From: Paramacrobiotus metropolitanus
Lineage: Eukaryota > Tardigrada > Eutardigrada > Parachela > Macrobiotidae
Assembly: GCF_019649055.1 (NCBI RefSeq)
Contig: NW_026570326.1
Location: forward strand, 406,537-470,536
Length of the DNA stretch: 64,000 nucleotides
Direction: 5' to 3'
Shown here piece after piece: positions 44,643 to 64,000 of this stretch. The position numbers and the translations under genes are program-made. The notes beneath the pieces were generated by a model that ran no database searches, was not told the origin of the DNA, and saw only the letters and a list, made by a program, of their open reading frames with translations. Position 1 is the stretch's first letter. Each line of letters opens with the position of its first letter.

Positions 44643-44730
44643 GTGTCTACCGCCTCGAGTGTGCGGTCTCTGACATGCCTCTGGGCGGGAGTGGGAGGTC
44701 CTGCAAGCACCTTCCGATTCTGCCCCTGGC

Positions 44731-44815
44731 TAACCCGGTAGGGTGCCAGGATCCGATACCCGGTAGGGCCGGATGCCACTTTGTCTCTAAACCCGGTAGG
44801 GTCGCTTCCTCCCAG
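44731..44815. repeat. ACCCGGTAGGG motif repeated three times
   Basis: Occurs at about 44731, 44759 and 44790 with 28-30 base spacing, in the non-coding left part of the element. Confidence 0.65.
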
Positions 44816-45453
44816 ACCCGCGGTGCAGTGCACCGAACGGCCGAAATCTGGAGTGCACTCTGGTTGCAGGGGGTTCCAGTGTGGTTTGAAGGCTTGGTTG
44901 GTCGAACAAGTACAAAAATAAAGTTTATAAGGCTCATTGGTTAAACATCGAAATAAAAGATCACAATTCCGGTGAGAATTAAAGAAAGTAAGATCATAGT
45001 TAGATATCCCAAAGCCAATTCCTTTGGTTAAATGGCTAAGTAAAAACATCAATTCTTTGGTTAATAAAGTCTAGAAAAACCAGGTATGGTTAAAAAACTA
45101 GACGCAAAATGGCTTATTCCGACTAGGTTTACCACAGGGCCAATCTTGTCCACACGGGTCCTAGTCAACGGTCCGCTTTATCCGATAGGATCAGCCTGGT
45201 CCTGTAGATCCGGGGCGACGGTTCCCAGAGATGTCCGCAGGGGTCCAGTTAAGTAAATCCAGCAGTGCGGTATATGGAAAGCACTGTTGCTTTCGCAAGG
45301 ACAGGTTGTCCCCTTCCTGATTAAAGTATGGTGGACCAAGCCCGGTTGGGCGGTCCATGAGGGCCAATAAGTAAGGCCTCTGGGCAGGAGTGGTGCTCCA
45401 ATGACCCAAATGGTATGCTGGACCAATTCCGTTTGGATGGCCCACATGGATCT

Positions 45454-45945
45454 CTAACTTGGACCGGTTTGGTCGTGCATGCCGGTTTGGTCATGCACCT
45501 CGGGACCAAAAAATTTCAAAGTTCGAGTGCACCCCGGTTGGGACATGCATCTCGGGCCAAAATCTTCTAAGTCCAGGAGGGCCACAATGGAGAAATTTCT
45601 AAGTCCCTGGACCGAAGTGGTGTGATCGACCAAACCCGTTGGGGCGGTCCAAACTCGGTCTCTGACATGCCTTGGGGGAAATCCTAGGTTCCATGGTGAT
45701 GGGACTTGTCTCTGGCTAGTGCGGGACGTAGGAGTCCTGTATAACCGGCTTTGGCGCTCCGATGTGGACTTAGTCGTTTTTTGCTGAGCCACGTCGTTGG
45801 ACGTGCCAAAAAACTTAGTCATTTTTCGATGGGCCAAGTCGTTGGACGGGCCAAAAGACTTAGTCATTTTTCGATGGGCAAGGTCATTGGACGGGCCAAA
45901 AAACTTAGTCGATTTTTCGACGGTCCAAGGTTGATGGCGGGCCAA
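45454..45945 (-). CDS. possible repeat-encoded ORF near the element's 3' end
   Basis: A 163-codon frame whose first third is the 15-residue repeat (FGPSNDLAHRKMTK, three units) and whose rest is Arg/Pro/Thr-rich without recognised motifs. It may be a chance frame in tandem DNA of the 3' untranslated region or LTR. Confidence 0.2.
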   Translation of the reverse strand: MARHQPWTVEKSTKFFGPSNDLAHRKMTKSFGPSNDLAHRKMTKFFGTSNDVAQQKTTKSTSERQSRLYRTPTSRTSQRQVPSPWNLGFPPRHVRDRVWTAPTGLVDHTTSVQGLRNFSIVALLDLEDFGPRCMSQPGCTRTLKFFGPEVHDQTGMHDQTGPS

Positions 45946-45993
45946 ATGGACTTAGCCGCTTTTTCGACGGTCCAAGGTTGATGGCGGGCCAAA
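45768..45993. repeat. 45-46 bp tandem repeat, about 5 units
   Basis: Units begin ACTTAG(T/C)C, continue TTTTTCGA(T/C)GG and end GGGCCAAA. The 45-bp period is a multiple of three, so minus-strand frames across it show a 15-residue repeat (FGPSNDLAHRKMTK). The two leftmost-in-frame units diverge more. Confidence 0.8.
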
Positions 45994-46743
45994 GTTGCAG
46001 ACTCGTTGAGTCTGGTCAGTCTCACTAGCCGTGGGCCATGAGTTTCCCTGAGACCGTGGCCATAACAAAATTAGTGACTTCTGACGAAAACATCAGATTG
46101 GCCTGGCCAAACTCCAAAAATTAAGTTGTGGGCGCCGGTAGGCGTTTACCACAAAGGAGTCGGTCTGCTGACTAGGAGCATCCTCGTTTGGCCTTTGGGC
46201 GGTGCGTCTTTTTGATGAGCCTCTGGGCGGTCCATGGTGAGGATGTTGAAAGTAGCATGCAAAGTGGGTGTACCACAACTTCAATGTGGTTCCCACACTC
46301 ACTTGTCCCAGTTGCCTGGTGTGGCGACTAAACTCGTGAGCCGCATATGGTCCGTTAGGCACCTAGCGGGCCTGGTCCAATTTCTATGGGCCAGGGCTTG
46401 TCCACGGCTTGTCGGAACTTCTATGCGGGCCGTCGCCACGTTCTGGGCGCTGAATCTCTTCCGTGCCGGTGAACAAGGCTTTGTGCCAAGCTCGGTCCGG
46501 GGGACTCCTGGGACTGGGATGGCCGAACCAAATTCATGGTCCCAGCCGCTAAGCCAGAGCCTATCCGGGGAATCCGGTTAAGATCCAGGGATTTAGGTCC
46601 GGTGAGGTAGACGATACATGGCCGTAAGCCACGTTTGTTGGGCGAGGGTAACAACCGTTGGATTGTACCCATTGCTGTGTTCAAGTCTGGTTTAGCCGAT
46701 GTCGGTCCATTTCTAGGGCCGACATGCAGGAATGGCCGTTGGC
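45994..46743. other. 3' non-coding part of the giant element
   Basis: GC-rich, with scattered GGGCGGTCCATGG-like motifs. No long convincing frame. The 3' LTR probably lies between here and 44.6 kb. Confidence 0.35.
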
Positions 46744-47847
46744 CTATTCCTGTCCTCTTGTCCGGCTTGGTCGCCCGCCGTCGCCCAACCCTGGGTTGAG
46801 TGGGTCAACGACGCTTTCCTCCATGGCCGCCAATTCCTGTTCAGTCAGGTTGTCCTGTGGTTGGCTGGAGGCACTGGTCGGCTGAACTTCTTGGCCAGGG
46901 TGCCCGGCCTGAGTCTGGACGTGTGCGGACGATCCTGTTGAAGATCGCTGAGTGCGAAACTTCGTTGGAAGTTTCCGCGCTGCCGTTCGGTTAACGAACG
47001 CTTCCGCACCGTCGTCGAAGTCCGTTGGATGTCGATAACGGTAGTCTTTAGCGCTGCTCCTGAAAACATTCAGGGCGCTCTGGATTTTGACTCCCGCTTC
47101 GATTTCGTGGATCTGGTTCCCAAGGAGGGCCACCTGAGTCAGTAATCGAGGAATGATCTTCCCCTGCCGGTAGGCAACTTCAAGTTCCCAGTGGCTCCGT
47201 AGGTGTCCCAGTCTGGCGGCAAAGATGCGTATCATCGTGCCGTTGTACGAGTAAGTGTACGTCCCTGGGGCCTCCTTGTGATCGGCCGGCTTGCATGGGA
47301 TTTCCATGGCGGCTCGTGAAGCTGCGATTATGAAGCTGGCGTTCGCGTCCGGTAGGACGAACTGGGCCAGGTATTTGACGACGTCAAGTTGGTCGTCCTT
47401 AATGTGCAGTTGGCACAAGTCATTCCAGTCCGGTCTGGTGATAGGCTGTCCAAGTAAGTTTACGTCCGTGATGCTCGATAGAGCATTGTCACGAACCATT
47501 GGATAGCCCTCGCGGTTGTCAATGTGTTCCGCCATACTGAAAGCACGGGGCCACTCCTTTTTCTGCATTTCCATTTCAAGGCCGGACCGGATGACGAAAG
47601 TTTGAAGATTCTGGACCATGGCATTGACTTGAGCCCATTTGTCCCTGGGGTATGAGATGGCGCCCATGATGTAATCCGTCACCACCAGGTGGGGGAGTGG
47701 ACGGATATTGATGCCTTGGTCCTCGGCATATTTATAGGGATCAAAGTCCGTGGCACTGACGATTACGTCTTGTCGGGCCGGTGGGTCCGATGACGGCGGT
47801 GCGGACTCAGTCTCCATCGGTATCTGGATGCTGATGTTGTGGGCCAC
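46744..47847 (-). CDS. giant element: alpha-helix-rich 367-aa protein, last ORF
   Basis: Uninterrupted frame from ATG 47847. Residues about 30-270 look like a compact, mostly helical domain (DYIMGAISYPRDKWAQVNAM, MIRIFAARLGHLRSHWELEV, LLTQVALLGNQIHEIEAGVK). The last 100 residues are Ser/Gln/Pro-rich and low in complexity. Such a helical core with a disordered tail would suit a capsid or nucleocapsid-like protein, but no family motif was recognised, so this is only a suggestion. Its start overlaps the end of the 48.7-kb frame by 85 bases in another frame, so the two may once have been one protein of about 650 residues, or a -1/+1 pair. Intact in this copy. Confidence 0.6.
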   Translation of the reverse strand: MAHNISIQIPMETESAPPSSDPPARQDVIVSATDFDPYKYAEDQGINIRPLPHLVVTDYIMGAISYPRDKWAQVNAMVQNLQTFVIRSGLEMEMQKKEWPRAFSMAEHIDNREGYPMVRDNALSSITDVNLLGQPITRPDWNDLCQLHIKDDQLDVVKYLAQFVLPDANASFIIAASRAAMEIPCKPADHKEAPGTYTYSYNGTMIRIFAARLGHLRSHWELEVAYRQGKIIPRLLTQVALLGNQIHEIEAGVKIQSALNVFRSSAKDYRYRHPTDFDDGAEAFVNRTAARKLPTKFRTQRSSTGSSAHVQTQAGHPGQEVQPTSASSQPQDNLTEQELAAMEESVVDPLNPGLGDGGRPSRTRGQE

Positions 47848-48704
47848 CGAGCTGACACTTCGTTCTGGTCACTTGGTGGACTGGGCGACAACCAGGCTGG
47901 ACTCTGCCACGTTCCGTTTTCCGGTGATGTGCGCGTTTGGTGTTGGCGCTCCTCGGGCTGGCTACGGCTTTGGCGGCCAGTTTGGTCCTGGTTGCGACTC
48001 TGGATCTGGTGACGTAAGTCGTCTGGGTTCCGCGGTAGCGGTGCCAGTGGCGCTTGCTGCTCAGTACGCGCTGGCTGGTATTGTCCTTTCAGAGCTTCCA
48101 ACAGTCCGCCTTCCATCAGCTGCTTGGCCACCTGGTCAACCATGGCTTTGTTGATGTTTTCCAGGATCTGGTTGTATGTCATCGGTGTGGGCATCTTATA
48201 TCCGTAGGATTGAGAGCCTGACGATCGCCGCTGCTGGTGTAGCTGATATAGAATCCTTGGGGCGGCCGTTGGCCCACGCCCTGAGGACTGGTCGTAGCCC
48301 GAGTTACGGGATCGACGTTCCCGGTCCCGTTCCTCCTTCCGTTTTCGAGCCGATTGGCTGAGTGGAGGGATCTGAGTTCCGGTGCTGCTCCAGCCGGGTT
48401 GTCGGGCGCCACTACGTTGCATGTAGAGATCGTAAATCTCTAACTGCTCATGGTCCCTCAGTAGGGGGAACGGATGGCGTCCATCGTGGCTGGTCATGTG
48501 ACAGTAGGCGTCGAAATTGCCTCTAACCACTTCTAGGTAGAAGCAGTACGCTCTGTCAGTTTCATCTCTGAAGCCCGGCCGCAGGTGGTATGCGCATGGG
48601 AACAGTTCCCGTGGGGAGTTGTCCCGGCGGTTTGTCTGGTCTCCAGCATTGCGCCTGCAGTCCGAACATCGTGGCTCATATTTCTGCTGCGGTGTAAGTC
48701 CCAT
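47763..48704 (-). CDS. giant element: zinc-binding-like 313-aa protein
   Basis: ATG 48704, directly after a good acceptor-like sequence (pyrimidine-rich, then ACCGCAG). The N-terminus holds Cys/His pairs (PRCSDCRRNAGD, LFPCAYHL, DRAYCFYLEV, DAYCHMTSHDG), a plausible zinc-binding domain. Then come a charged Arg/Glu stretch, a short amphipathic segment (NQILENINKAMVDQVAKQLM) and a Gln/Arg/Ser-rich tail. The last 28 codons overlap the next ORF in a different frame and read like out-of-frame sequence, so a frame change near 47.8 kb is likely. No enzyme motif was seen. RNA or DNA binding is an inference from composition. Confidence 0.55.
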   Translation of the reverse strand: MGLTPQQKYEPRCSDCRRNAGDQTNRRDNSPRELFPCAYHLRPGFRDETDRAYCFYLEVVRGNFDAYCHMTSHDGRHPFPLLRDHEQLEIYDLYMQRSGARQPGWSSTGTQIPPLSQSARKRKEERDRERRSRNSGYDQSSGRGPTAAPRILYQLHQQRRSSGSQSYGYKMPTPMTYNQILENINKAMVDQVAKQLMEGGLLEALKGQYQPARTEQQAPLAPLPRNPDDLRHQIQSRNQDQTGRQSRSQPEERQHQTRTSPENGTWQSPAWLSPSPPSDQNEVSARWPTTSASRYRWRLSPHRRHRTHRPDKT

Positions 48705-48893
48705 TCTCTGCGGTAACAGAAATGAAACTTGCAGAATAAGGTTAAGTCCACTTCTAGGACAGGTCCCTATAGTATTTGCGCCCTATGTTTTTACATCCCA
48801 ATAAAATTACGTGTGATTTGTTAACTAGGCTTTTCTTGCCGGTGAATTATATCGGGATCACCCCCTAGACCCTATGCGAGTTCTACGCCTAGG
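48705..48893 (-). promoter_or_regulatory. non-coding spacer ending in a splice-acceptor-like site
   Basis: In the minus frame this stretch carries several stops and no coding sense, in contrast with its neighbours. It ends in TTTCATTTCTGTTACCGCAG, three bases before the ATG at 48704. This is what a spliced subgenomic mRNA would need, as for retroviral env. Inference only. Confidence 0.35.
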
Positions 48894-49250
48894 TCACTGA
48901 TGGTAAGTACGCCGCTTCTTCTTTGACTTGGTTGAGGCCAAGGAGGCGGGTCCGGTGGGACGAGGGCCATATCGTTCCGGTGGATTGTTCTTCATCCGGT
49001 ACCGCTGCTGGGCTTCTGGCTCATCAACAGTTTGCTCGAGCCAGCCTTCGCGTAGCATCTTTTTGACGATGTATCGCACGTCCTCGCTGAGATGGTACAA
49101 CCCGTTAGGGCGACTGGGGGGATATTCATTGCCGTCACTCAGCTGAGGGTCGTACGTCGAGAGATATACTTCGTATCGTCCAAGGAGTTGATTGGCCATC
49201 TCGCCTCTTGTCAAGCCCAAGGGATGTTGCGTGGTGGTCAGTACCGCCAA
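48894..49250 (-). CDS. giant polyprotein segment: winged-helix-like unit
   Basis: No ATG at its start: the sense runs straight through a TAA at 49263-49265 from the preceding segment (GYWE, stop, RNAILAVLTTTQHPLGLTRG). The predicted first helix lies right after that stop, so the stop cuts a domain. The unit reads LTRGEMANQLLGRYEVYLS then LSEDVRYIVKKMLREGWLEQ, which fits helix-turn-helix plus wing, and ends in a basic tail (KSKKKRRTYHQ). The frame stops at 48894, before the spacer. Likely the natural C-terminus of the giant polyprotein. Confidence 0.5.
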   Translation of the reverse strand: MAVLTTTQHPLGLTRGEMANQLLGRYEVYLSTYDPQLSDGNEYPPSRPNGLYHLSEDVRYIVKKMLREGWLEQTVDEPEAQQRYRMKNNPPERYGPRPTGPASLASTKSKKKRRTYHQ

Positions 49251-49262
49251 GATGGCATTCCG

Positions 49263-49688
49263 TTATTCCCAGTAGCCTTGAGGTGCTTCGTCACGTCTTT
49301 CCGGTGGGAACGTGTAGAACACCTGCATGTTGGGCAGATGGGTTCGAAGGATGGCTCCTTCTTCATAGGCCATTCTGATGTATTTCATCACCTTGGACTT
49401 GGTGACTGGTGGGCCATTCCATTTCTGGATGAGTTGGAAGACCAAGCCTCCTGTAGCAAGGGTTGTACCCGTTTGGGACAACGCCTTTAAGCCTGCCTTA
49501 ATATATGCCCACGTCTCGTCCGTATTGGAGATCTTCGGCTTCTTTGATGGATCTCCGCCGGGCCATTTCCTCGCCACGTTGGTCCTTGGTGGCGGCACAT
49601 AATTGATGCGCGGTTTGGCCGGGCATGGATCGGGTAAAGTCCACTGGATCTCACCATCATCTGATTCTGGTGAGGTGGAGTCTCGCAC
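49263..49688 (-). CDS. giant polyprotein segment: winged-helix-like unit with acidic leader
   Basis: The coding sense begins upstream of the ATG (VEYAEPSGSGAWPERERVRD) and joins the previous segment through a one-base frame change near 49738. After a basic linker (NVARKWPGGDPSKKPK) comes a helical unit (YIKAGLKALSQTGTTLATGG, VTKSKVMKYIRMAYEEGAIL) ending in a beta-like LPNMQVFYTFP. The helix-helix-strand order is similar to the neighbouring segments, suggesting internal duplication. It ends at TAA 49263 with the sense continuing beyond. Confidence 0.5.
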   Translation of the reverse strand: MRDSTSPESDDGEIQWTLPDPCPAKPRINYVPPPRTNVARKWPGGDPSKKPKISNTDETWAYIKAGLKALSQTGTTLATGGLVFQLIQKWNGPPVTKSKVMKYIRMAYEEGAILRTHLPNMQVFYTFPPERRDEAPQGYWE

Positions 49689-49735
49689 TCTCTCCCGTTC
49701 GGGCCATGCACCGCTTCCACTTGGCTCAGCGTATT

Positions 49736-51049
49736 CTACGCTGGCCTGACTTTCCGATCGGCGCCTTCTGCGCCACTTTGGTCCTGACTGGCGCCTTCTG
49801 CGCCGCCCTGGTCCTCCATGTCCTGGTCACCGTTAGGTGGCTGATTTTCATCACCGGGTGGGATTTCCATGTCATGGTCCGGTGGGACGTCCATGGTCAG
49901 TTTACCAGGGCTCTGGTCATCGTCGTCATCTGAGTCGGACTTTTGGGATTCCATGGTTTGGTCCTGGTTCGGCTCTCCTTCTTGTTCCTCCTCCGAGTCC
50001 TCCGGTTCGGAGTCCTCAGAGTCCGATACGTCTCGGCCCGGTGGCGGTCGTTTTTGTCCGCTCTTCTTCGTAGACGTGGCCTTTGTAACTGTCGTCTTTC
50101 GACTCAAAGTTGATGTGGCTGATGGAGTTGGTGAAGGAGGTCTGGACTGGCCAGCTGCGTTTGGCAGTGACACTGTGTCCCTTGGCACGGGTCGGATTCC
50201 GGCCGCGTGCATCTCTTCTTCAACTTCTTGCCGTGCAGCCTTCTCCCTTCTAGTGACCGATGGTCGAGGGGGCTTTTCAACCGGCAAGTTCTTTGGACCA
50301 GGCAGTCTTGCCTCCTGGGAGATTAAGTAGGCCTCTTTGGCTCTGCCGGTCAACTTGTCCTTTGGCGGTCCAACCGCTTTTTTCCGGTCCGTAACCCATC
50401 TTGTGTCAACATCGTGTGACACGTACAGAGACCGTTGGGTCTTCTGTGGGATGAATCCCGGAATGGTGAAGCGAATTGGTTCCGCCCTGTGTGCGTTGGT
50501 CGTTTCCAGGGTTCCTTCCCTGACCAGCGCGATAAGCTCATCAGCAAATCTGGTAGTGAGTTTGTCCAGGTTCTCCTCTCCAAGGTAATAGAAAGCGTTG
50601 CGTGTCCTGGCAATGTCGGTTAAGTTGGATCCTCTTGGGTTATGCAGGTAAGCAATGGTCCTGCATATCTGATGAAAAGGAAGGTCCCTACTACGGGAAA
50701 GTCCTGCTGGCCGATGGGACACATGTAGTTCCATCATACTGGTCCAATCGCGGTGTGTGCGGACCAGAAGTCCCATGTCCAGAATCCGGGATACCATCCG
50801 CCGCATAAAGGGTGCCGTTAGTACACGGTCCGCCGGCGGTAGGCCTTGGTACTCTTCCTTGTATTTCATACGGGACCGGAGGACGCAGACAAGGCATTGG
50901 TACATGTCTCGTCCCGTTGCGCGTCTCATGGCCCTGGCGGCTGCCACGGTTAATCGTATATAGTGATCCGCTGGGATCTCTATATGTGTGGCTTCCGGTC
51001 CAGGGTCTGGTAATTCTGCCTCATCGTCCCAGGGCGAGGGGAGCATCAC
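49736..51049 (-). CDS. giant polyprotein segment: two winged-helix-like units and an acidic tail
   Basis: 437 codons; sense extends upstream (KITQLEKRLSGDEDVQVLSD) into the frame of the preceding segment via a frame change near 51.2 kb. Unit 1: MYQCLVCVLRSRMKYKEEYQ ... MRRMVSRILDMGLLVRTH. Unit 2: FHQICRTIAYLHNPRGSNLT ... DELIALVREGTLETT ... IRFTIPGF. Both look like small helix-turn-helix domains followed by a strand. The second half is Lys/Arg-rich, then Ser/Asp/Glu-rich (SDSEDSEPEDSEEEQEGE), a disordered acidic region. DNA or RNA binding is inferred from fold appearance only. Confidence 0.5.
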   Translation of the reverse strand: MMLPSPWDDEAELPDPGPEATHIEIPADHYIRLTVAAARAMRRATGRDMYQCLVCVLRSRMKYKEEYQGLPPADRVLTAPFMRRMVSRILDMGLLVRTHRDWTSMMELHVSHRPAGLSRSRDLPFHQICRTIAYLHNPRGSNLTDIARTRNAFYYLGEENLDKLTTRFADELIALVREGTLETTNAHRAEPIRFTIPGFIPQKTQRSLYVSHDVDTRWVTDRKKAVGPPKDKLTGRAKEAYLISQEARLPGPKNLPVEKPPRPSVTRREKAARQEVEEEMHAAGIRPVPRDTVSLPNAAGQSRPPSPTPSATSTLSRKTTVTKATSTKKSGQKRPPPGRDVSDSEDSEPEDSEEEQEGEPNQDQTMESQKSDSDDDDDQSPGKLTMDVPPDHDMEIPPGDENQPPNGDQDMEDQGGAEGASQDQSGAEGADRKVRPA

Positions 51050-51111
51050 TTCCTCCGACGGCGGCTCTGCCCCAAAGCGTGGTTCGTACTCCTCGTCTCG
51101 CCGTGAGCGAT

Positions 51112-52293
51112 TTAGTGCGGGCTCTGCTGGTTTATCTGGACTGTCCGATAGGACTTGGACGTCTTCATCGCCTGACAGCCGCTTCTCGAGCTGGGTGATT
51201 TTGGCCTCTTGGCTTTTCTTGTCCTTGGCCGCTTGCTTCTTTTGGCGGTTCCTCTCGGCCTCCGGATTCTGGATTGGCCGGGGTGTGGCCGCCTGACTTC
51301 CACTCGGTTGAGGGAGTTTGGACGAGTGGCCGGTTTGGCCCTCGGTTGGGGAGAAGTAGGACGAGAGGCCGGTTTGGCCCTCTCTGGGTTCTTGGCTTTC
51401 CTTGGCTGCTTATTCCGTTGGGAATTAGCTGAGTGGATCACACCCATGCCAAGTGCCAAGTTATCCAATGTCCCGGTTATGGGGAATGTCACTGGACGGC
51501 CAAAAGGTATTTCGTCGATACTGGCAGGCATGTTCGTCAGTATTATCGGAGCAGCGGCCGTTGGCCCTGTTCCAGACTGGCTTTGGCCTGCCAAATCTTG
51601 CGCCGATGAAATGGCCTTCGGTGCCTCCTCCTGTTGGACTGGTTCTGGCTGTGGTGCTACAGCCACAGGTCCGGCCGGAGAAGTATCCATTAGCTCTGAC
51701 GTCGCTGGTGTCTGCGTCTTTGGCGGTACCACAATCAGTGGGGCACTTGACGACAGGGCTTCGGTCATCATTGGGTCTTGTTCCGGTAGGGGAAAGGCCC
51801 TTTGATTGCGGCGGGTCCGATAATATTTTACCATTCGGAAAACTAATGGCGCGAGCATGTCGGATAACATGTCATATTCTTCCATGTTATTCTGCTCCTT
51901 CGCCTCCTGCCTCTTTGCTAACAGGAATCGATATCGCCGTCGCTCGTTTTGGTCTGCGTGGATGTATAGGTGTCTCTGCTTGGTAGGAGTGAGGACACTC
52001 ATGGGCATCAGGGCCGTGTCAGTTTCCACTTCTTGATCCGAGACGGCCGGAGTTATCTGCACCATCAGTCTGGCCGATTCTGTGGCCACTGGTGCAGGGG
52101 TTCTGACCGTGACAGGTACTGGCTCGAGTGATGAACCTGCAGACACCGTAGGTGCTGCGATTCGTTCCACAGTAATGGTCATGGTTGGCTGCTGAGGAGG
52201 TGTGGTGTCCATCCTCTCTTTGGTCGGAGACTTGCCTGGCTGGCTCGGTGTGAACCTGGCAGGCGCCGGTTCGATGGCCGGCATGCTGAGCAT
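51112..52293 (-). CDS. giant polyprotein segment: low-complexity Pro/Thr/Val-rich region with a helical block
   Basis: 393 codons in the same frame as the preceding segment, separated from it only by TAA 52336-52338, after which sense continues (KRTSPGRATSTPARMLSM). Mostly Pro/Thr/Val-rich, with one compact charged helical block (HLYIHADQNERRRYRFLLAK, EEYDMLSDMLAPLVFRMVKY) and a basic C-terminal stretch (SRIRRPRGTAKRSKRPRT) that is probably out of frame beyond about 51.2 kb. No enzyme motif. Confidence 0.45.
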   Translation of the reverse strand: MLSMPAIEPAPARFTPSQPGKSPTKERMDTTPPQQPTMTITVERIAAPTVSAGSSLEPVPVTVRTPAPVATESARLMVQITPAVSDQEVETDTALMPMSVLTPTKQRHLYIHADQNERRRYRFLLAKRQEAKEQNNMEEYDMLSDMLAPLVFRMVKYYRTRRNQRAFPLPEQDPMMTEALSSSAPLIVVPPKTQTPATSELMDTSPAGPVAVAPQPEPVQQEEAPKAISSAQDLAGQSQSGTGPTAAAPIILTNMPASIDEIPFGRPVTFPITGTLDNLALGMGVIHSANSQRNKQPRKAKNPERAKPASRPTSPQPRAKPATRPNSLNRVEVRRPHPGQSRIRRPRGTAKRSKRPRTRKAKRPKSPSSRSGCQAMKTSKSYRTVQINQQSPH

Positions 52294-52335
52294 TCGCGCC
52301 GGAGTTGATGTGGCGCGTCCAGGAGAAGTCCTTTT

Positions 52336-53043
52336 TTATGGAGATCGACTTCGGCGTGGCGATTCCTTCGTTGAAGGTGGCCGGACCTGACTGGTCTCAT
52401 ATAACGCTCTTTGGACATGTTCGTCCAAATCTTCTTCGTCCTCCGACTCCTCGCTGGACAAGACGCCCCAGAAGGCCGCTGGCAGTTGGGGACCTTCGTC
52501 CTCACTTTCTGCCTCCTCCAGTGGGAGTTGGTTTTCCACTGGCTGGCCTGGTCGTGGGCGCGGTTCAACTGTCCATGCCCTTGGATCAATGTGTGGGCCC
52601 CGTATATAGATGGCATGCTCTATAATTTTGCTAGGCAACTTGCGTTGGCGAAGGGCCTGGCTCTTGCTCCGCATGGCCATCAATTTTCTGATGAGGATGG
52701 TCCGCTCTTGTACCAGCAATTGACAGCCTTGGTTGATGCGGTCAATCTCATGGTCCGTTAATGCTGGGTCGCCGGCACGTAGTCGCTGGCGCATGTCCTC
52801 CTCAGTCAGATTTAAGCGAAGATCGACTTCTATGATCTCGCTCACAGCCCGATTATGCAGGTCATCCCATGACTCCGTTTGAGTCAGTCGGATGCGATGT
52901 CTCATTGGAGGTTCGTCCCGCAATGGCTGAGTTGTTCCTGACGGAATCTTTGGTGCTTCCGGTGGTGAAAGCACATGTCCCTTGCCAGGAAAGTTCTTTG
53001 GCGACGACTTCTTCTTCTTGGTCGGTAGACCATGAAGCGTCAA
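52336..53043 (-). CDS. giant polyprotein segment: coiled-coil, acidic
   Basis: The sense starts upstream (DIDVVPGPTRPDPSILKPKK) and is linked in the same frame, through TGA 53134-53136, to the segment before. It has a KKKKSSPK basic patch, a helical region of about 90 residues with heptad-like spacing (LTEEDMRQRLRAGDPALTDH, LLVQERTILIRKLMAMRSK), then an acidic run (EEAESEDEGPQ, SEESEDEEDLDEH). Ends RRSRSP before TAA. Structural or oligomerising role is inferred. Confidence 0.45.
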   Translation of the reverse strand: MTLHGLPTKKKKSSPKNFPGKGHVLSPPEAPKIPSGTTQPLRDEPPMRHRIRLTQTESWDDLHNRAVSEIIEVDLRLNLTEEDMRQRLRAGDPALTDHEIDRINQGCQLLVQERTILIRKLMAMRSKSQALRQRKLPSKIIEHAIYIRGPHIDPRAWTVEPRPRPGQPVENQLPLEEAESEDEGPQLPAAFWGVLSSEESEDEEDLDEHVQRALYETSQVRPPSTKESPRRSRSP

Positions 53044-55876: not shown

Positions 55877-55957
55877 CCACGGTGGTGGGTATCGCCATTG
55901 GTTTGGGTCCGGCTGCGGCTGGTTTGAAGGTCCAGGCGCAGGATACGGTGGATATCC

Positions 55958-56194
55958 CTAATGTGGATTGTAGTAGGGCGGCGGGGTAAACTGTGACCGC
56001 GGTCCAGTATGGACCGGCGTAGTCGTGACCGTTGGCCCGACTGCCGCAGTTGTAAAAACCGGCTGACTTGCCGAAGTGGTCGGTAGGCCACCATACAGTA
56101 TTGGTTGAGGTGGGCCTGTGCGGCCATGGGGGTAATGTCGGATCATTCGGTCCGACGTAGAACTTGGCTGGCTGCCAGCTACCACTGCATTCAC
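55958..56194 (-). CDS. giant polyprotein segment: Pro/Thr-rich with PPPY
   Basis: 78 codons between TAG 56195 and TAG 55958, both in the same frame as the segments on either side. Reads SQFTPPPYYNPH just before the second stop, a PPxY motif, and sense continues afterwards (GYPPYPAPGPSNQPQPDP). Disordered composition. Confidence 0.45.
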   Translation of the reverse strand: MNAVVAGSQPSSTSDRMIRHYPHGRTGPPQPILYGGLPTTSASQPVFTTAAVGPTVTTTPVHTGPRSQFTPPPYYNPH

Positions 56195-56527
56195 CTAAAG
56201 TCCGATGTCGTCAGAGAATGTCCCTGGTGGCCAAAGTTGTGGCAGGATGGCTCGAGGGGGCAGAGGCTGGGACCGCGGTAGCGGTGTGTCGGCCCGTGAA
56301 CTGGGGCCGACTGACATAGTAGCCAGCTGCTCAGCGGTTAAGTTAGCTCTGATGTTCGGTACCTGTACACTCGGAGGCCGGTTAGACGACCGAGTGGAAG
56401 ATCCGCCCGACCGAGATTCTGGTCGTGAGTATGGGTGTGTGCGGTTGCTGCGGTCGGAGTCGTCTAAGCGATCGGTACGTCGGCGTCCTTCCATCGTTGA
56501 ATGGGGCGCTGTCACGAGACGAATCAC
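56195..56527 (-). CDS. giant polyprotein, N-terminal segment
   Basis: First frame after the spacer. The first ATG (MEGRRRTDRLDDSDRSN) lies about 36 codon-bases into the frame; the region is Arg/Ser/Pro-rich (RPESRSGGSSTRSSNRP). It ends at TAG 56195-56197, immediately followed by in-frame sense (VNAVVAGSQ). Probable start of a polyprotein of about 2,540 codons reaching 48894. Confidence 0.45.
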   Translation of the reverse strand: MIRLVTAPHSTMEGRRRTDRLDDSDRSNRTHPYSRPESRSGGSSTRSSNRPPSVQVPNIRANLTAEQLATMSVGPSSRADTPLPRSQPLPPRAILPQLWPPGTFSDDIGL

Positions 56528-56747: not shown

Positions 56748-57372
56748 TTATTTTAGAACGTTATTCTGTCCAGTCTTATCAACCGCCTTGTCCAGTACAT
56801 CCGGTGGGACTGTACTGGACTTGTCCGATACGTCCGGTGGGACCGTATTGGACTTCTGCTTTTTGCCCTTTGAGACTTTCTCAGATTTTTCCCGTCCCGT
56901 GGTTATGCGGGTGAGTAAGTCTTTATCCGCCTCATCTTCAGCAACTACGTCCTCTTCCAGGACTTGCTGGGCCGTAAGGGTTGCCTTAGGCTTTTTAGGC
57001 GTCTTTGGTCTTTTGGGCTTCTCCTTAGGCGCCGGGGCCACCTTTGGCTCTTCGGTCGCCACTGGCTTGTCCGTAGCGGATGTCCCTTTTTCTGGTTCCG
57101 CCGGGGCCAAAGTTGGGTCAATGACGGTTAATGGCTGGTTTTGAAGCTTGGTCAGCGCCGGTGTCTCGAAATCCGTTTTGGCCTTTCGAGGTCGGCCTGG
57201 GCCACGCTTCACTGTTGTTGCTGGGTCCGAAATCTTCGGGTCAGGTGGGCCATAGCCTGGGATTATCAAAGTCTTTTGCTGCTCCGCCACAAGTTTTTTG
57301 GACGGGCCCTTTCCGGGCTTCTGCTTCTTCAGCAATTTCTCTGGGCGTGTGGGAGCTCTGCGTTTTGTCTCG
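56748..57372 (-). CDS. giant element: AT-hook, Lys/Pro-rich protein
   Basis: Starts directly after integrase: an ATG near 57372 gives MAEPRQNAELPHAQ, then a one-base frame change joins EKLLKKQKPGKGPSKK (57335 frame). Residues about 43-53 are KRGPGRPRKAK, a canonical AT-hook (RGRP-type core GPGRPRK) as in HMGA proteins, which binds the minor groove of AT-rich DNA. A histone-H1-like Lys/Pro/Ala region follows (KEKPKRPKTPKKPKATL). The end has a duplicated STVPPDV motif. A nuclear chromatin-binding role, perhaps in integration or tethering, is inferred. AT-hooks are not standard in Ty3/gypsy elements. Confidence 0.65.
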
Positions 57373-57383
57373 GCTCTGCCATG

Positions 57384-58745
57384 TTATTGCACCTGTCCGA
57401 CTCTGTGGGGTTGAGGTTCCGCGTCGCCGCCCTTCTTTTTGGTTGAGCGAGTTATTTTGCGACTCAGGCCTTCCGGGTTAAGGTATGGCTTCAAGCGATC
57501 GACACATACAGTGTGTTCCACGCTGGTGTCCCGCTCTCGGATCCAGTAGGTGTTCGGCTTGGGTATGCCGATGACAATGTAGACGCCTTCGTACTTGTTT
57601 GGGTTGGTCGGGTCGTCTACCATATTCTTTAGAGTGACCAAGTCCCGCTTCTTGAACTCGGCCTGCGACTTCTTTTTGTTATAAATGGCCGCATCCCTCA
57701 GGAAACCTTCTTCTATACGTGTTTTCGCTATTTCATGCGCCCGGTTCAGGCGCTGCTGCATCCTCTGGACGTAACGTTCGTTCGTCGTAAATGTTTCTGG
57801 GACGTTGGTCCCAGCCAGGACGTCTTGTGGTATGGTCATTTCTCGTCCATATAGCATGTGGTATGGCGAGAATCCAGTGGTTGCGTGGACGGCACGGTTC
57901 ATGCCGGAAATCACGTAAGGTAGGGCCAGGTGCCAACGATGTTCATCGCCGGCGCCGCCAAAGTTTCGAATTCCATCCCAGATCGTTTGCATCTGCCGTT
58001 CGACTTGGCCTAGGCCCTCTGGGTGATAAGCGGATCCGAAGGTCTGCTCGATGCCGAAGATTTTCGCCACTTTGGCGAAGGATTTTGCCGTGAAATGCGT
58101 TCCCCGGTCGGAGTGCATTGTATGTGGCATGCCGTATTTTAGTACAACTTCTTCGACAAAGAACTTTTCGAATTCCTTGGCCGAGTTTGTCTTGGTCGGC
58201 CGGGCTATGGTGAATTTCGTCATTTGGTCGACCACCACAGCGATGTACCGGTACTTCTTTGTTTGGGTCACCGGTAAAGGTCCTTTAAAGTCGGCGAAGA
58301 CGCGGTACCAAGGCGTAACAGCTTCGGACGGCTGCAGCTTACCGTAGGTAGCTCGCCGCGGTACTTTGCCGAAGATACACGTCTGACATCGGTCGATGTA
58401 GTCGTGTATGTCGCAGCTCATGCGGTCCCAGTAGTACCTGAGCTTGGCTGCTTCGATCGTCTTGCGGTATCCAAAATGGTTCCCTGTTTTTCCGTCATGG
58501 AGGGACTGGATAATGTTTTTCCGCATAACCATAGGGACAACGAATCTCCTTTCGAGTTTTGCATTGATTTCGGTGAGTCGGTAGAGCACACCTTTGTCCA
58601 TCTGATAATGTTCAGGTAGTTTGGACCTCTTGTCCATTTCACTTTGATGTTCCATCTCATGGATTTTCTTGGCCAGAGTTGGGTCGCGATGTTGCATCCG
58701 TCGCAGTTCTTGCGCGGTGCGGTCCGTGACTTTTTTTCTGGACAC
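57384..58745 (-). CDS. giant element: integrase
   Basis: 453-codon frame. It shows an HHCC-type zinc domain (LHDGKTGNHFG ... CQTCIFGK), the DDE core with Asp in VFADFKGPLPV, Asp in HSDRGTHFT and Glu in GLGQVERQ, and a C-terminal GPY/F-like domain (KYEGVYIVIGIPKPNTYWIR, then VCVDRLKPY). These are the signatures of Ty3/gypsy integrase, which inserts element cDNA into the host genome. All three catalytic residues are present. The frame starts without an ATG and is joined to the upstream part by a frame change at an A7 run near 58735. Two in-frame stops (TAA 58934, TGA 58868) lie between RNase H and here. Confidence 0.9.
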   Translation of the reverse strand: MSRKKVTDRTAQELRRMQHRDPTLAKKIHEMEHQSEMDKRSKLPEHYQMDKGVLYRLTEINAKLERRFVVPMVMRKNIIQSLHDGKTGNHFGYRKTIEAAKLRYYWDRMSCDIHDYIDRCQTCIFGKVPRRATYGKLQPSEAVTPWYRVFADFKGPLPVTQTKKYRYIAVVVDQMTKFTIARPTKTNSAKEFEKFFVEEVVLKYGMPHTMHSDRGTHFTAKSFAKVAKIFGIEQTFGSAYHPEGLGQVERQMQTIWDGIRNFGGAGDEHRWHLALPYVISGMNRAVHATTGFSPYHMLYGREMTIPQDVLAGTNVPETFTTNERYVQRMQQRLNRAHEIAKTRIEEGFLRDAAIYNKKKSQAEFKKRDLVTLKNMVDDPTNPNKYEGVYIVIGIPKPNTYWIRERDTSVEHTVCVDRLKPYLNPEGLSRKITRSTKKKGGDAEPQPHRVGQVQ

Positions 58746-58933: not shown

Positions 58934-59844
58934 TTAGTCTTTGTAATCCTTGAAGTTAGGGACTTGGTCCAACTCTTCATGTGGGCCTTTGTCATCGTCC
59001 CGTTCGAGTGGCCACCTGGACAATGCGTCAGCATTGTCATAGAATGTTGTACTCGACAAGCCAGGCGGCTTGTACTCGATGGTGATGTCCCGTCCCTGTA
59101 AGGCGAGGGCCCTTCGAGTAAGACGAGGATTGATGCCGGGCCGGTTAGACTCGCATCTGAGCAGGTTGGTTAGGGCTCTATGGTCCGTCCTTACTGTGAA
59201 AGGTCCGTGGTCAATGTAATGCTTGAATTTTTGGACGGCCCATACTACGGCTAGGCATTCCCATTCGGTCACGCCGTAGTTTTTCTCAACTCCATGTAGG
59301 ACACGACTTGCGTAGGCAATTGGTCTCGAGTCCTGGCTGAGTATGGCTCCGATGCCAGCGCCACTTGCATCACATTCGATGGTGGTCTGCTTTGTCGCAT
59401 CGAATTTGGCCAATATTGGGGCTTCCGTTAGGGCCTTTTTGATTTCGTTGAACTCAGCGGTGTGGGCATCAGTCCAGTCGTTCTTCACTGAACTTTCCTT
59501 CCGCATTAGTTCGTACATCTTGGAAGTCTTCTGGGCGTAGCCCTGGATGAACTTCCGGTAGTAATTAGCGAGTCCAAGAAACGAGCGAAGTCCAAGAAAC
59601 GCTCGGTCTTGGGCGGTAGTTTTTCGGCGATGGCCGCTACCTTCTCGGGATCGGTATGGACACCGCTCTTGCTGAGGATGTGTCCAAGGAATTGGAGTTT
59701 CTCCATTCCGAATTCGCACTTCGACGGCTTTATCGTGAACCCTGAGTCTCTGAGGCAGAGAAGCGTATTTCTGAACGCTTTCCGGAATTCTTCAAAGGTT
59801 TTGCCGAAGAATATCACGTCGTCGATGTATGCGAAGACGCCGCC
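58934..59844 (-). pseudogene. giant element: reverse transcriptase C-part and RNase H, frame-broken
   Basis: The frame reopens right after TAA 59845 with the catalytic AYIDD motif (FAYIDDVIFFGK), then the primer-grip and thumb region (KCEFGMEKLQFLGHILS). A short tandem duplication of about 17 bases near 59590 (CGTTTCTTGGACT twice) shifts the frame. Sense resumes as RSFLGLANYYRKFIQGYAQK and continues into RNase H: IECDASGAGIGAIL, NYGVTEWECLAVVW, VRTDHRALTNLL, DNADALSRWP. RNase H degrades template RNA during reverse transcription; key acidic residues are visible (Asp in ECDAS, Glu in TEWE, Asp in RTDH). Ends at TAA 58934. Confidence 0.88.
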
Positions 59845-61104
59845 TTACTTTCGGGCTGGCGCCGTAATCTTGTCCATTGTCATTTGAAATGTGGCTGGAC
59901 CATTGCAGACGCCAAACGGCATTTGTTTGAACCGGAACATCCCTTCTGGAGTCACGAAGGTAGTGTAGTCCATGGACGCTGGGTCCATAGGGATTTGCCA
60001 GAATCCGGACTGACAATCTACCTTGCCGTAATAGGCGTTTCCTGCGCATTGATCCAGGAGTTCGTCTGGATTGGGCAATGGGTAATTGTTCTTTTTGGTC
60101 ACCGAGTTCAGCTTTATGTAGTTTATGCAGAATCTGGTGCCCATGGTCCCGTCGCCGTTTTTCTTCGAAGCGAGGACCACTGGGAAACTCCACGCTGCCA
60201 TGGACGGTTCAATCACGCCTTGGTCCAACATTTCTTGGACGTGCTTATTTATGAACTCTCGTCCCTTCCAACTCGTTCGGGTTGGGTTCATTTTAATTGG
60301 TGCAGCGTCGCCAACTTCTATGACGTGGGTCACTCCTTTGACGTCACCGTAAGGCTTTTTGGACGTCGGAAATATGGCCCTGAGTTCCCATAAGTCCTGA
60401 CGGAGTAGAGCGGTCTGCTCCTCGGTCAGGTGATCGCCAAAATGTGCATTGGCGATGTGGGCGCGGATTTCGCGCTCCACTTCTGGATCTTCCTCTCCGG
60501 TTTGGAGGGAATTAATTCGGGCGTATTCTTCGTCCGAGATTTCCTCGTATGGCTCCACTTGGCCCATGTTAACTTCTTTCCGGAGTATATGGGGCTCTTT
60601 GGAGTAGTTTGACACCACTATGGTAAAACTAGTGCCGTTATGCTGGACTGGTCCGTCGAGCATGGCCAGACTCCGTTTGGTGTCCTGGCTTCCGAGGTAC
60701 ATAAGTTTCTGTCTCGGGTCGACAGGGAAGTCAATGCTAACTTGGACCGGGGTGATGGACTCCGGTGGGAGTTCCACTTTTACGGTTGCCCGGACCATAG
60801 CATGGTCATTAATGGTGCGGTACCGGTTTGGATTATTCCCTGCCTCTTTTGGCCATGGTAGGGCGTCGGCGTTAGGAATAGACCAATCTACGCCGTCCTC
60901 CTTGATATTTGGCTCAAACAAGTCGCTGTAGTACATGTGGCCAATTCTTGCACCTTTACGGAGGACTTGGTCTCTCAGGGACTTGTTTTGGACCTGAATC
61001 CACGCATGTTCGCCATGTCGAGTTTGGACCTCCGCTTCGATCGGTAAGACCCAGCGGTGTGGTCGTCTCAGCGATTTAAAGTGGATTGGACGTCCCGGGT
61101 CCAT
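59845..61104 (-). pseudogene. giant element: reverse transcriptase N-part (fingers/palm)
   Basis: 419-codon frame. The first 250 residues are a linker between protease and RT; from about 330 come RT blocks: TRFCINYIKLNSVTKKNNYP, LDQCAGNAYYGKVDCQSGFW, GMFRFKQMPFGVCNGPATFQ. It is cut by TAA 59845-59847 just before the catalytic YIDD block, which follows in the same frame. The upstream border is also only a stop: TAA 61255 in the same frame, with coding sense between (REVVFVHQRYTLPAYSTCWI). Family Ty3/gypsy by block sequence and by the PR-RT-RH-INT order. Confidence 0.88.
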
Positions 61105-61626: not shown

Positions 61627-62308
61627 ATAGAGGACAAGTCAGCTGGACTTCCTCTGACGAAGGGTCCTGCTCGTTCTGGCTGGTGTACCTTTGATGGCCT
61701 CCCTGTTCTGGGTGTGGGCCATTATTGAAGCGCACTTTTGTCGCTATGTGCGGTGCTGCTTCTGGCAGTGGTTCCGCTATGGTCCTGACGTTAGTCAGGC
61801 TCAAATCGTATTTTGGCCATATGCTGACGGTTAAGCCAGGATGTTGGGCCACTTGTCTTCGAAGTATAATGATGTCATCGAAGAGATCCGTGCACATCTT
61901 TTGAAGCGCTTTCGGAGCTTCCATGTGGTACTCTCTGTATTCCCACACGAGGGTTAGACGTTCGTCCTCCCATAAGGTTCCTTCTTGGAATAAGTCGTCC
62001 AGTTCTTGGGCGAATGGTCCATATTGTTCGGCTATCTGCGGCCACGTTAGTGGTACGCCTTTTTCTTGTAGCCAGCCCTCTTCTAGGGCAAGGAGTCGGT
62101 CAGCTCGGTATTCCAGGAAATTTCTTACTCCCGTAAACCAAATTTTGTATCGCTGGACCAATTTCTCCTTAATTTCTCTACCAGGCACCGGCCCTTGACC
62201 CGGTGCCTCTGGTATCGGGATAGTCTTTACTATCCCGTGATTTGGCTTGAGTATGCCTGCACGGAATTGGGTCATGTAACGCTCGATTGCGTTATGGACG
62301 CGCAGCTA
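61547..62308 (-). CDS. giant element: helical domain with CCHH knuckle-like motif
   Basis: ATG 62275, 242 codons; in-frame sense extends back to a TAG at 62306-62308 and beyond. Helical body (YKIWFTGVRNFLEYRADRLL, GPFAQELDDLFQEGTLWEDE, ALQKMCTDLFDDIIILRRQV) and near the end LTCPLCGSGNTGHTHPFG, a CPLC...HTH zinc-knuckle-like motif. It begins with ILKPNHGIVKTIPIPEAPG, nearly repeating a sequence just after the protease (ILKPNEEIVWDAVKSIPIP), so a local duplication happened here. Order after protease is unusual for a Gag-like domain. Confidence 0.5.
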
Positions 62309-62466
62309 CCATATGAGGCTTTCAGGGGTGTCCAGGCATTCCCAGCAGGTAGAAGGAGAAGTTTTCGGGTGATCAAGCCGATTGACTCTAACTTCATCGT
62401 CTGGTCCCGGTGCTTTAGGTATCGGGATAGACTTTACCGCGTCCCAAACGATTTCTTCGTTTGGCT

Positions 62467-63426
62467 TCAAGATAAACGTAAACTTAGATAGTCACAGCCA
62501 AGTAAAACATGCACGTCCGTTAACGTTGGTTGGACGAAGAACATGTGGTGGCTCTTGTATCCCTGCAGTGTCACCGGTACGGTGCAGCAGTGGGAGACCA
62601 CGAAGGCGGGTTGTCCGCCGACACCAAGGATTTTGGTGTTCCGTCCTAATGGCTCCGTTTTAATGCCATTGGCGGTGCAGAAATGCTGGCTGATGAGGGA
62701 TGTCTCCGCTCCGGTGTCCTGCATAGCGAGCGTGTGGGCTGGTCTAATCTGGACTTTGTGTGTCCATGCTCTTACGGTTTTCGGTTTGCGATTTTCGTCG
62801 AGACCAACTGCCACTTCTCGTATCACCGGTACAATGGGGATTAGCGACACTGGTCCTGGGTCGTCAGGAGCATACTTGGGTGCTGCTAGCTCCTGTCGGA
62901 CAGACTCTTCCTGCGGTGATGTTTCCGCTACCCGTAGGGTCGAAAACATATTTTTGGTGTTCAGGAATGTCCGTGAGCTATTGATGGTTCGCACCGTTGG
63001 TGTGGTGCCGAGGGGTCGTCCACCGGTCTGGGGCCAGCAGGTGCGGGGACTTGACGCCTTAAGAGGTTCGGCTGTCCACTCTTCTAGTGATCCGACCTCA
63101 CTGTCCGTACTTCTAACGGACCATCCTTTCGGTGCGCTATCGGAGGATGTGTCTGACGCCGATTTAGGGTACGTCATGTTCGTGGTGGGACGTCTCGCTT
63201 TGCCACGTGATCGGTTGGCCTGAGGGTTAACTGAGGCTCCGTAAATGGACTTGGTCGCCAGCTGGACGACTGTCGGTCTGGTCTCATTTCTAGAGCCAGA
63301 AGGTCCAGGCGTGACTTCTACACGTCCTGGCATGGCCACAATTCTAGGGCCATGTGGTTTAGTCGCTGGTTTGGCGCTAAACCTGGATCCGCCGGTGGGC
63401 TGTTGAGCGGCCGGTTTGGGATCCAT
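62467..63426 (-). CDS. giant element: aspartic protease region, 319 aa
   Basis: ATG 63426. The first 230 residues are basic and Pro/Ser/Thr-rich. The protease is in the last 90: active-site loop AMQDTGAETSLIS (Asp-Thr-Gly), flap-like region (GQPAFVVSHCCTVPVTL) and the closing VLLGCDYLS, equivalent to the ILLGxDxL block of retroelement proteases. It acts as a dimer to cut Gag-Pol. The frame ends LSLRLS; the natural continuation (FTFILKPNEEIVWD) is in the next frame, so a one-base change lies near 62478. Confidence 0.82.
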   Translation of the reverse strand: MDPKPAAQQPTGGSRFSAKPATKPHGPRIVAMPGRVEVTPGPSGSRNETRPTVVQLATKSIYGASVNPQANRSRGKARRPTTNMTYPKSASDTSSDSAPKGWSVRSTDSEVGSLEEWTAEPLKASSPRTCWPQTGGRPLGTTPTVRTINSSRTFLNTKNMFSTLRVAETSPQEESVRQELAAPKYAPDDPGPVSLIPIVPVIREVAVGLDENRKPKTVRAWTHKVQIRPAHTLAMQDTGAETSLISQHFCTANGIKTEPLGRNTKILGVGGQPAFVVSHCCTVPVTLQGYKSHHMFFVQPTLTDVHVLLGCDYLSLRLS

Positions 63427-63515
63427 GGGGGTTAGTAACTGTACAGTGGGGTTATCTTTGTCCGGCGGTTTCGGTTCCGGTCTTAGGTCGGGTGAGTTGC
63501 CGATACTCCCCGACC

Positions 63516-64000
63516 TTAAGCGTTTCCCGTGGTTGGGCTGGCTCGCTTAGGGCCGCCGCCATTGTTGTTGGCTTTCACCAACTGGTCCGGTATGGGTGGT
63601 AGCGCTGGCCTTTCATTGGCTGGCGTTTGGTATTCTTGCTTTGGACCATTCTGGCGGTTGCCGCCACCTGACCCATTTCTTGAGCCGGTGGATTGTCTTC
63701 GGCTGCCATTCCCCCTCATTACCACGTTGTGGTCTGGGTTGTTTGGGTGGCACTAAACCGAAGCGGTTAGGGTTTGCTGACCCGGTAGAGTAGCCCTTAG
63801 TGTAACGGCTCCGCCAATCCAAATACCACTTCCGGTTTGGATTTTCGCCGTAAGGCCTGTTGGCATAGCCACAGCCGTCGGTTGCGTGGTTTCCCCACAG
63901 GCAATTGGCTACAGGTGATAATTCCATCTTTGGCCCATCGTTCGAACATGCGCTCGACTCGGTCGATGTACATGTCCTCCTGTTTGCGGGCCTGTTCGGG
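63516..64000 (-). pseudogene. giant element: C-terminal part of a Gag-like protein (partial)
   Basis: Cut by the window edge. One minus frame reads ERMFERWAKDGIITCSQLPV from the edge; another reads NCLWGNHATDGCGYANRPYG and a third reads RQSTGSRNGSGGGNRQNGPK with a stop at 63516. Switching between them gives a helical end, a Cys/His cluster that could be a zinc knuckle, and a Gly/Asn/Arg-rich nucleic-acid-binding tail. Two frame changes are therefore likely. Position upstream of protease fits Gag. Confidence 0.5.

Follow-up and report, generated by a model that had tools for sequence, protein, structure and literature searches.

A giant Ty3/gypsy-type retroelement of the tardigrade Paramacrobiotus metropolitanus with a large coding module after integrase

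The DNA analysed here is a 64,000-nucleotide stretch of the genome of the tardigrade Paramacrobiotus metropolitanus (contig NW_026570326.1, labelled C106, positions 406537-470536), referred to below as the window. It carries a decayed copy of about four fifths of a Ty3/gypsy-type retroelement of roughly 25 kb with long terminal repeats (LTRs). The large 3' module that follows integrase, composed of two open reading frames (ORFs) called ORF3 and ORF4, is real. An earlier note made from the letters of the window had proposed such an element with a large added module, and five LTR-bounded copies elsewhere in the genome and codon comparisons bear this out, showing a conserved module that moves between LTRs. 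To the overall explanation, a giant Ty3/gypsy element with a spliced ORF4 and a nuclear, nucleic-acid-binding ORF3 product, we give a probability of about 0.68. The genome searched was the 169.8-Mb P. metropolitanus assembly of 533 contigs, to which labels such as C1 and C6 refer.

Anatomy, conservation and spread of the element

A genome search with the integrase gave 93 scored matches among 1,491 candidates. We grouped the 49 matches at 79-100% identity as family A, to which the window copy belongs, and the 44 at 61-64% as families B, C and others. Five other family-A copies (C6, C176, C51, C23 and C151) were read as 10-kb chunks around integrase. The choice was not random: these copies were among the best integrase matches on the plus strand that have long frames. 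All five have LTR pairs of about 385 bp, spaced 24.4-28.4 kb start to start and ending in TGTCAGA...TCTGACA, and further repeats lie outside the element at C176. A 4-bp target duplication flanks the copies at C6, C176 and C51; C23 and C151 show none, a point against the overall explanation. The LTRs of four copies diverge by 0, 0.005, 0.010 and 0.011 (Kimura two-parameter distance, substitutions only) and the family has therefore been active recently, while those of C23 diverge by 0.127. Directly after the 5' LTR of each of the five copies lies the primer site TGGTAGCAG, which we take to fit the end of the initiator tRNA-Met.

The less damaged copies share one gene order: LTR, gag-like ORF1, pol with protease (PR), reverse transcriptase (RT), RNase H (RH), integrase (IN) and an AT-hook-like tail, ORF3, ORF4, tandem repeats, and LTR. 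Measured from the start of integrase, ORF1 spans about -9.0 to -4.76 kb, pol -4.8 to +2.0 kb, ORF3 +2.24 to +9.85 kb and ORF4 about +9.99 to +11.94 kb (in C176, where it has about 650 codons). Tandem repeats with a period of 45-47 bp follow near +12.7 to +13.2 kb in all five other copies, and the 3' LTR lies between +14.1 and +14.8 kb. The copy at C151 has about 3.9 kb more upstream of pol than the others. By eye, ORF1 has a long, coiled-coil-looking N part rich in proline and glutamine and finishes in a gag-like portion that contains a cluster of cysteines.

The breaks in the frames vary from copy to copy. ORF3 is fully open in C6 (about 2,535 codons) and C23 and interrupted in C176, C51 and C151. 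The module is present in all five LTR-bounded copies but is not always open. In the window copy pol, ORF3 and ORF4 are each split into several frames, and because decay has broken the pol tail, ORF3 and ORF4 into pieces, the window displays many ORFs. The AT-hook protein, very long frame and pair of further ORFs that had been described as separate genes are such fragments; the GRPRK motif of the supposed AT-hook protein sits in the integrase-containing frame of the less damaged copies and belongs to the pol tail. The full motif, RGPGRPRK, is AT-hook-like and has no Pfam match. Other observations of the note hold. The stretch after integrase is 10.6 kb long in the window (57383 to 46744, with open frames on the minus strand), of which the element uses about 9.6 kb as sense coding sequence in ORF3 and ORF4. 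From 46 kb onward the base composition (GC content 0.52-0.57, AT skew -0.19 to -0.27) makes the module resemble pol and differ from the flank.

ORF3 and ORF4 are under selection, with ratios of nonsynonymous to synonymous substitution (dN/dS) near those of pol and gag. In a codon comparison of six copies, six pieces of ORF3 gave mean dN/dS values of 0.25, 0.23, 0.21, 0.38, 0.16 and 0.17 and two pieces of ORF4 gave 0.20 and 0.11, beside 0.06 for IN, 0.14 for RT-RH and 0.21-0.33 for ORF1; each piece was compared in 15 pairs from the six copies (10 for two ORF1 pieces), and the pairs are not independent.

The module is widespread within family A. Genome searches score the best candidates only, so the counts of neighbouring ORF3 and ORF4 are lower bounds. 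At least 39 of the 49 integrases have an ORF4 match no more than 25 kb downstream in the same orientation, at 9-11 kb in 32, at 12.1 and 23.1 kb in two and at 2.1-5.8 kb in five. The other ten have no ORF4 among the scored matches (66 of 757 candidates were scored), in at least three cases (C78, C273 and C435) because the contig does not extend far enough. Copies of the kind that the earlier note had named as telling against it occur as a minority, the five short-spaced ones; of these, C24, C303 and C413 retain ORF3 sequence, and C27 and C287 carry the exact splice joint described below. The copy at C24 had been judged by distance to lack ORF3, and this was dropped when the end of ORF3 was found still there.

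Families with integrases about 61-62% identical to that of the window also carry ORF3 and ORF4. Among the 44 more distant integrases, at least eight have both, one has ORF3 only, nine have ORF4 only (six at 9.0-12.8 kb and three at the short spacing of 2.0-2.3 kb) and 26 have neither among the scored matches. ORF3 matches of the family B/C type are followed by ORF4 within 6 kb in 37 of 62 cases and have open frames of up to 3,302 codons. Between families A and B, ORF3 is 31-33% identical over its C-terminal 650 residues. A search with the end of ORF3 placed five of 100 matches in frames of 2,540-2,559 codons, although several matches may be pieces of one copy. Family C was at one point thought, from C42, to lack ORF3, which was abandoned since copies whose ORF4 is 97-98% identical have ORF3 just upstream. 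In the stretch C64:308158-318157 (L030), 8,157 bases inside an ORF3-like gene of family B read N, possibly an assembly gap.

A related but shorter element defines family D. At C92 it is about 17 kb long and has a CCGG duplication; its LTRs measure 294 bp and show 1 difference in 294 columns. It has the order of family A: gag, pol, an ORF3 of 645 codons, and ORF4. Its gag, pol and ORF4 are each read in two frames, and its pol is 41-45% identical to that of family A. The gag matches Retrotrans_gag (PF03732, E 3.7e-7), and ORF3 matches the linker histone family PF00538 above the cut-off (E 7e-8, 33.0 bits against 22.4). An ORF3 of this PF00538 type was found 1.6-6.7 kb downstream of 36 of 65 D-type integrases, the first 65 of 94 rows being used and the last 29 left out. 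A direct repeat of about 330 bp, 99% identical, lies between ORF3 and ORF4 at C92 (L036:2622-2951 and L038:657-986).

The products of ORF3 and ORF4

The last quarter of ORF3 appears by eye to contain about four helical blocks, the second of which resembles the linker histone domain. Block 2 matches PF00538 in five of seven family-A homologues (best E 0.014), and the D-type blocks do so in five of five (best E 4.3e-6). Profile-profile alignment of block 2 between families A and D with hhalign gave E 5.6e-6 and a probability of 85.6 over 53 columns. A hidden Markov model (HMM) built from 12 blocks found the host H1 at E 3.4e-5, ORF3 of C6 at 0.0032 and the other A and B copies at 0.16-0.58. A search of the protein database with a profile of the ORF3 C-terminus returned two matches among the 7,992 scored candidates listed, both from P. 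metropolitanus, and their names (SETD1B-like and armadillo-like) look like automatic mislabels. The genome search with PF00538 picked out a true H1 gene, at C33 with 104.9 bits; another 60 matches are weaker, with at most 26 bits, and seven of them exceed the cut-off. Of the 60, 42 fall in one ORF type, to which the ORF3 at C92 belongs, and family-A ORF3 contains two, at C95 and C303. A further linker-histone-like domain type was seen at L042, L047 and L048 and at C97, C414, C56 and C73, where PF00538 matches fall within open frames 1,716-1,756 codons long.

Several results weigh against assigning family A to this fold. Block 2 of the window copy matches PF00538 at E 0.19 and 12.4 bits, below the cut-off of 22.4, and among the seven members other families were matched as well, ANAPC2 in three (best E 0.099) and Band_7 in one (0.023). 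The best of 1,300 decoys reached 0.63 with the 12-block model, so that the A and B copies are ahead only narrowly. With HMMs of the two family D subsets the decoys win: for block 2 the best decoy (0.2) outscores A (6.9) and B (2.6-3.0), and for block 4 the best decoy (0.31) outscores B (1.8-1.9). In pairwise comparison with host H1, A is at chance (561 of 1,000 shuffles reach its score) and B is weak (96 of 1,000), and against D the figures are 27 and 40 of 1,000 for A and B. Whole-region alignment of family-A ORF3 (A1) to that of D with hhalign had a probability of 5.5. Searches of the PDB with the ORF3 blocks gave no credible relative, one match being a MarR protein at E 0.3. Single-sequence structure prediction gave a mean predicted local distance difference test score (pLDDT) of 36 for the C-terminal half of the window ORF4 and 40 for the C-terminal stretch of ORF3, too low for either model to be used.

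The best-surviving alternative, to which we assign perhaps one chance in four, is that the C-terminal blocks adopt some other small helical fold and that the ORF3 product has no role in binding DNA but serves as a scaffold of the virion or associates with its capsid. The proline content of ORF3 (12.6-16.9%) would suit such a protein, as would the sub-threshold family-A match and the weak shuffle and HMM results just given. The alignment of block 2 to the linker-histone-like block of family D argues for the histone-like fold instead, as does its position, which by eye is second of about four in both families.

ORF4 has a conserved C-terminal half, which is homologous between families A and D (Smith-Waterman; 0 of 300 shuffles reach the score). 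The N part is at chance level in the same comparison (148 of 300), as is ORF4 of family C against D (223 of 300), and whole-region hhalign of ORF4 between A and D found nothing. Pfam scans matched ORF4 to no known family, a point against the overall explanation, and a search of a 5.8-billion protein database scored none of 7,388 candidates.

Two short copies of family A point to how ORF4 may be expressed. In C27 and C287, codon 44 of ORF3 (...GTGTACAG) is joined directly and in frame to the start of ORF4 (AGAATGGGACT...), giving a genomic joint of the GTGTACAG-AGAATGGG type. The six longer copies, including that of the window, all have CAG/GTACC at the first site and the pyrimidine-rich ...TTACC(A or G)CAG/AGAATGGGA at the second (slashes mark the cuts), and the two sites lie 7,575-7,693 bases apart. 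Without mismatches the 19-nt joint has two occurrences in the 169.8 Mb, those of C27 and C287, each lying between pol and ORF4 of family A; the next-best match has two mismatches and lies outside the mapped places of the family, and up to three mismatches gave 34 matches compared with 14 for a reversed-pattern control. Around the joint C27 and C287 are 81% identical over 299 bases, and C27 shares 91% identity over 343 bases and 98% over 63 bases with the full-length C51. The two joints look independent, because the copies are only 81% alike and C27 is close to C51. Most simply, these joints in genomic DNA would stem from element RNA that had been spliced before its reverse transcription and insertion, and ORF4 is probably a spliced product from which most of ORF3 has been removed.

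It is unlikely, though less so than the alternatives that follow, that the joints in C27 and C287 are instead deletions by recombination between short repeats, with ORF4 translated from another RNA. CAG stands at both ends of the intron in all six copies and ACAG at both in some, so a deletion of this kind could happen, and other internal deletions are known at C24, C303 and C413. Recombination would nevertheless have had to produce the same base-exact joint in two copies that are 81% alike, one of them 91-98% like C51, and to preserve the reading frame, and it does not account for GT-AG ends and a pyrimidine-rich 3' site kept in six of six copies.

If ORF4 is spliced in this way, the full-length RNA would serve as gag-pol mRNA and as genome, and one leader exon would feed either ORF3, with the intron kept, or ORF4, with the 7.6-kb intron and nearly all of ORF3 removed. 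ORF3 and ORF4 would then be alternative products sharing a basic, serine-rich leader of 44 residues. A search for a joint upstream of ORF3 gave none, no match of 40 starting at a splice site shortly before its ATG, which speaks against the overall explanation as regards ribosome access to that ATG. We propose that the ORF3 product most likely binds nucleic acid in the nucleus, where its winged-helix-like blocks may coat, condense or tether the long (25-kb) complementary DNA (cDNA) or act on host chromatin. ORF4 would most likely be a regulatory or structural partner, possibly one that aids the nuclear exit of unspliced RNA, by analogy with what is outlined for the CERV protein of Cer1. Only tentatively, at about one chance in three, do we extend this to a whole tardigrade clade of Ty3/gypsy elements, of several families and from 17 to more than 25 kb, that would encode a giant linker-histone-like chromatin protein and a splice-nested twin gene for packaging cDNA or remodelling host chromatin at integration sites.

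It is improbable that the element captured ORF3 and ORF4 from its host and carries them passively. A linker-histone-like domain could derive from a host gene of the H1 type, yet PF00538 matches strongly at a single place genome-wide, the H1 gene of C33, the mean dN/dS between copies is 0.11-0.38, and the two ORFs occur together across families whose integrases are about 61-62% and whose pol is 41-45% identical.

A lineage that retains, downstream of integrase, some 9.6 kb of sense coding sequence under selection, in copies recent enough for their LTRs to be 0-1% apart in four of five, is present in an animal known for stress tolerance. If the proposal is true, a linker-histone-like protein borne by a retroelement would make the packaging and integration of long cDNA directly testable, and the genomic joints offer a ready assay for the expression of nested accessory genes.

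The copy in the window

The contig stops at the end of the window, inside gag, so the 5' part of this copy is missing. The remaining features are listed in Table 1. The match of the 3' LTR to that of C6 spans 44296-44677, where two bases (CA) precede the TG, and the LTR proper is therefore two bases shorter. The start given in the earlier note, 44643, falls inside this LTR. A Pfam match to a PaaD zinc ribbon between PR and RT (61547-62275) was discarded as an artefact of decay, the five other copies reading differently there. Scans of the window with Rfam (gathering threshold) and for tRNA genes gave no match.

Table 1. Features of the element copy in the window
Feature	Position	Strand	Basis and remarks
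3' LTR, TGTCAGA...TCTGACA ends	44296..44675	-	92% match to the C6 LTR
Non-coding tandem-repeat stretch preceding 3' LTR	45640..46050	-	limits approximate, by eye
ORF4	46744..48707	-	cysteine-containing start, conserved C-terminal half; two frames here; begins at 3' splice site
Putative 7.66-kb GT-AG intron	48708..56362	-	splice sites; exact joint in C27 and C287
ORF3	48894..56494	-	Pro-rich N part, charged middle, winged-helix-like C-end blocks; broken here
Linker-histone-like block 2 of ORF3	50447..50698	-	PF00538 below cut-off; hhalign to family D block
C-terminal pol tail, AT-hook-like RGPGRPRK motif	56748..57335	-	shares the integrase frame where copies are less damaged
Integrase (H2C2 zinc domain and rve core)	57384..58745	-	Pfam
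RNase H part of pol	58934..59719	-	Pfam
Reverse transcriptase part of pol	59845..61104	-	Pfam, E 1.8e-13; frame broken here
Aspartic protease part of pol (DTGAETS)	62467..63426	-	Pfam
C-terminal end of gag-like ORF1	63613..63999	-	runs off contig end; closely similar to ORF1 of C176

Elsewhere in the window, four host ORFs look like one gene family: 21287-22336 (+), 30528-31655 (+), 33793-35604 (+) and 40693-41571 (-). By eye they share motifs like ...TAEHVQ... and ...PTLM..I..AL..., and the 603-residue member matches the extracellular link domain PF00193 (E 2.6e-8). Identical 284-bp direct repeats at 1561-1844 and 4363-4646, 2.8 kb apart, are possibly the LTRs of a short element, and an ORF with CCHC-type motifs (4774-5658) begins just past the second. 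A 96-nt inverted repeat, with arms 96% complementary around a 132-nt spacer, occupies 42148-42471.

Classification and comparison with known elements

The element is of Ty3/gypsy type by gene order, LTRs, target duplications and integrase relatives. It has the PR-RT-RH-IN order of Ty3/gypsy elements (Metaviridae), and its LTRs end in TG...CA in all five family-A copies, with the 4-bp duplication, of the short kind usual for Ty3/gypsy elements, in three of these and in the family D copy. The gypsy-type Gag is recognised by PF03732 in family D; family A matches no gag family and resembles Gag by eye. The window integrase matches those of prototype foamy virus (PFV) and Ty3 in the PDB (E 1.5e-30 and 3e-26). 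In the protein search its five best matches are all named P. metropolitanus, and in an integrase tree of 30 rows, few of them named and 15 of the original 45 having been dropped as too short, families A and D fall into a single clade with the P. metropolitanus proteins (100/99).

By the features tested the element is not errantivirus-like, a chromovirus or a Burro element. A chromovirus would have a chromodomain at the C-terminus of integrase; in the window copy Pfam found none, either in the frame of integrase or in its tail. The earlier note suggested an errantivirus-like agent. That the 3' module carries an envelope gene or viral structural genes, which would make the element an infectious provirus of this kind, is largely refuted and very improbable: the location after integrase, the large size and a splicing-based expression that recalls the env of retroviruses would fit, but the ORF3 and ORF4 pieces examined contain no membrane segment (highest 19-residue hydropathy 1.75) and Pfam scans found no envelope family.

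No description of this element was found in the literature covered (titles and the beginnings of abstracts, most subscription papers lying outside that coverage), nor, within the same coverage, of a sense module this large after integrase or of a linker-histone-like ORF3. The earlier statement that in Ty3/gypsy elements nothing more than an env or small ORFs follows integrase does not stand, to judge from the parts of the sources seen: it is countered by plant Retand elements (PMC11963269) and bdelloid rotifer elements (PMC5408684), and further by CERV of Cer1 (PMC10309623) and by Burro (PMC6431247), whose extra domains lie in ORF1.

The Burro elements of planarians are giant and gypsy-like, with an interior of up to 25 kb and MATH, BIR, BCL2 and Env-like domains in an ORF1 of 4,873 residues between gag and pol, according to the parts consulted (PMC6431247). 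They share with the tardigrade element the gypsy-like character, an interior up to about 25 kb, a giant accessory coding capacity and tandem repeats; they differ in that the extra genes of the tardigrade element follow integrase and its LTRs are short (385 bp). None of the four domains was found at E up to 0.1 in two ORF1 pieces of C176, or in the window and the other element pieces scanned with Pfam. As far as the sources extend, the total length ranges of Burro and Ogre include that of the tardigrade element.

In the excerpts on Retand, 2.9-6.6 kb lie between pol and the 3' LTR (PMC11963269), and the long region, the tandem repeats and a putative DNA-binding extra protein are all reminiscent of the tardigrade element; the extra ORFs of Retand are antisense, whereas those of the tardigrade element are sense and total about 9.6 kb. 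The LTR elements of bdelloid rotifers likewise have a non-envelope ORF3 after pol, in the portion available (PMC5408684), but their ORF3s are enzymatic, including a GDSL esterase and a DEDDy exonuclease, or env, families that were not matched in the tardigrade element.

For the linker histones H1/H5 (PF00538), the likeness is a block in ORF3 that passes the cut-off in family D; in the family of the window the block is below the cut-off, and it belongs to an ORF of 2,500 codons, unlike a small basic histone. A parallel in expression is Cer1 of Caenorhabditis elegans, an animal LTR retrotransposon whose extra protein, CERV, is made from a spliced mRNA (PMC10309623, abstract and outline). CERV is nuclear, and the abstract and outline do not mention a giant ORF3; ORF4 would be its counterpart by mode of expression.

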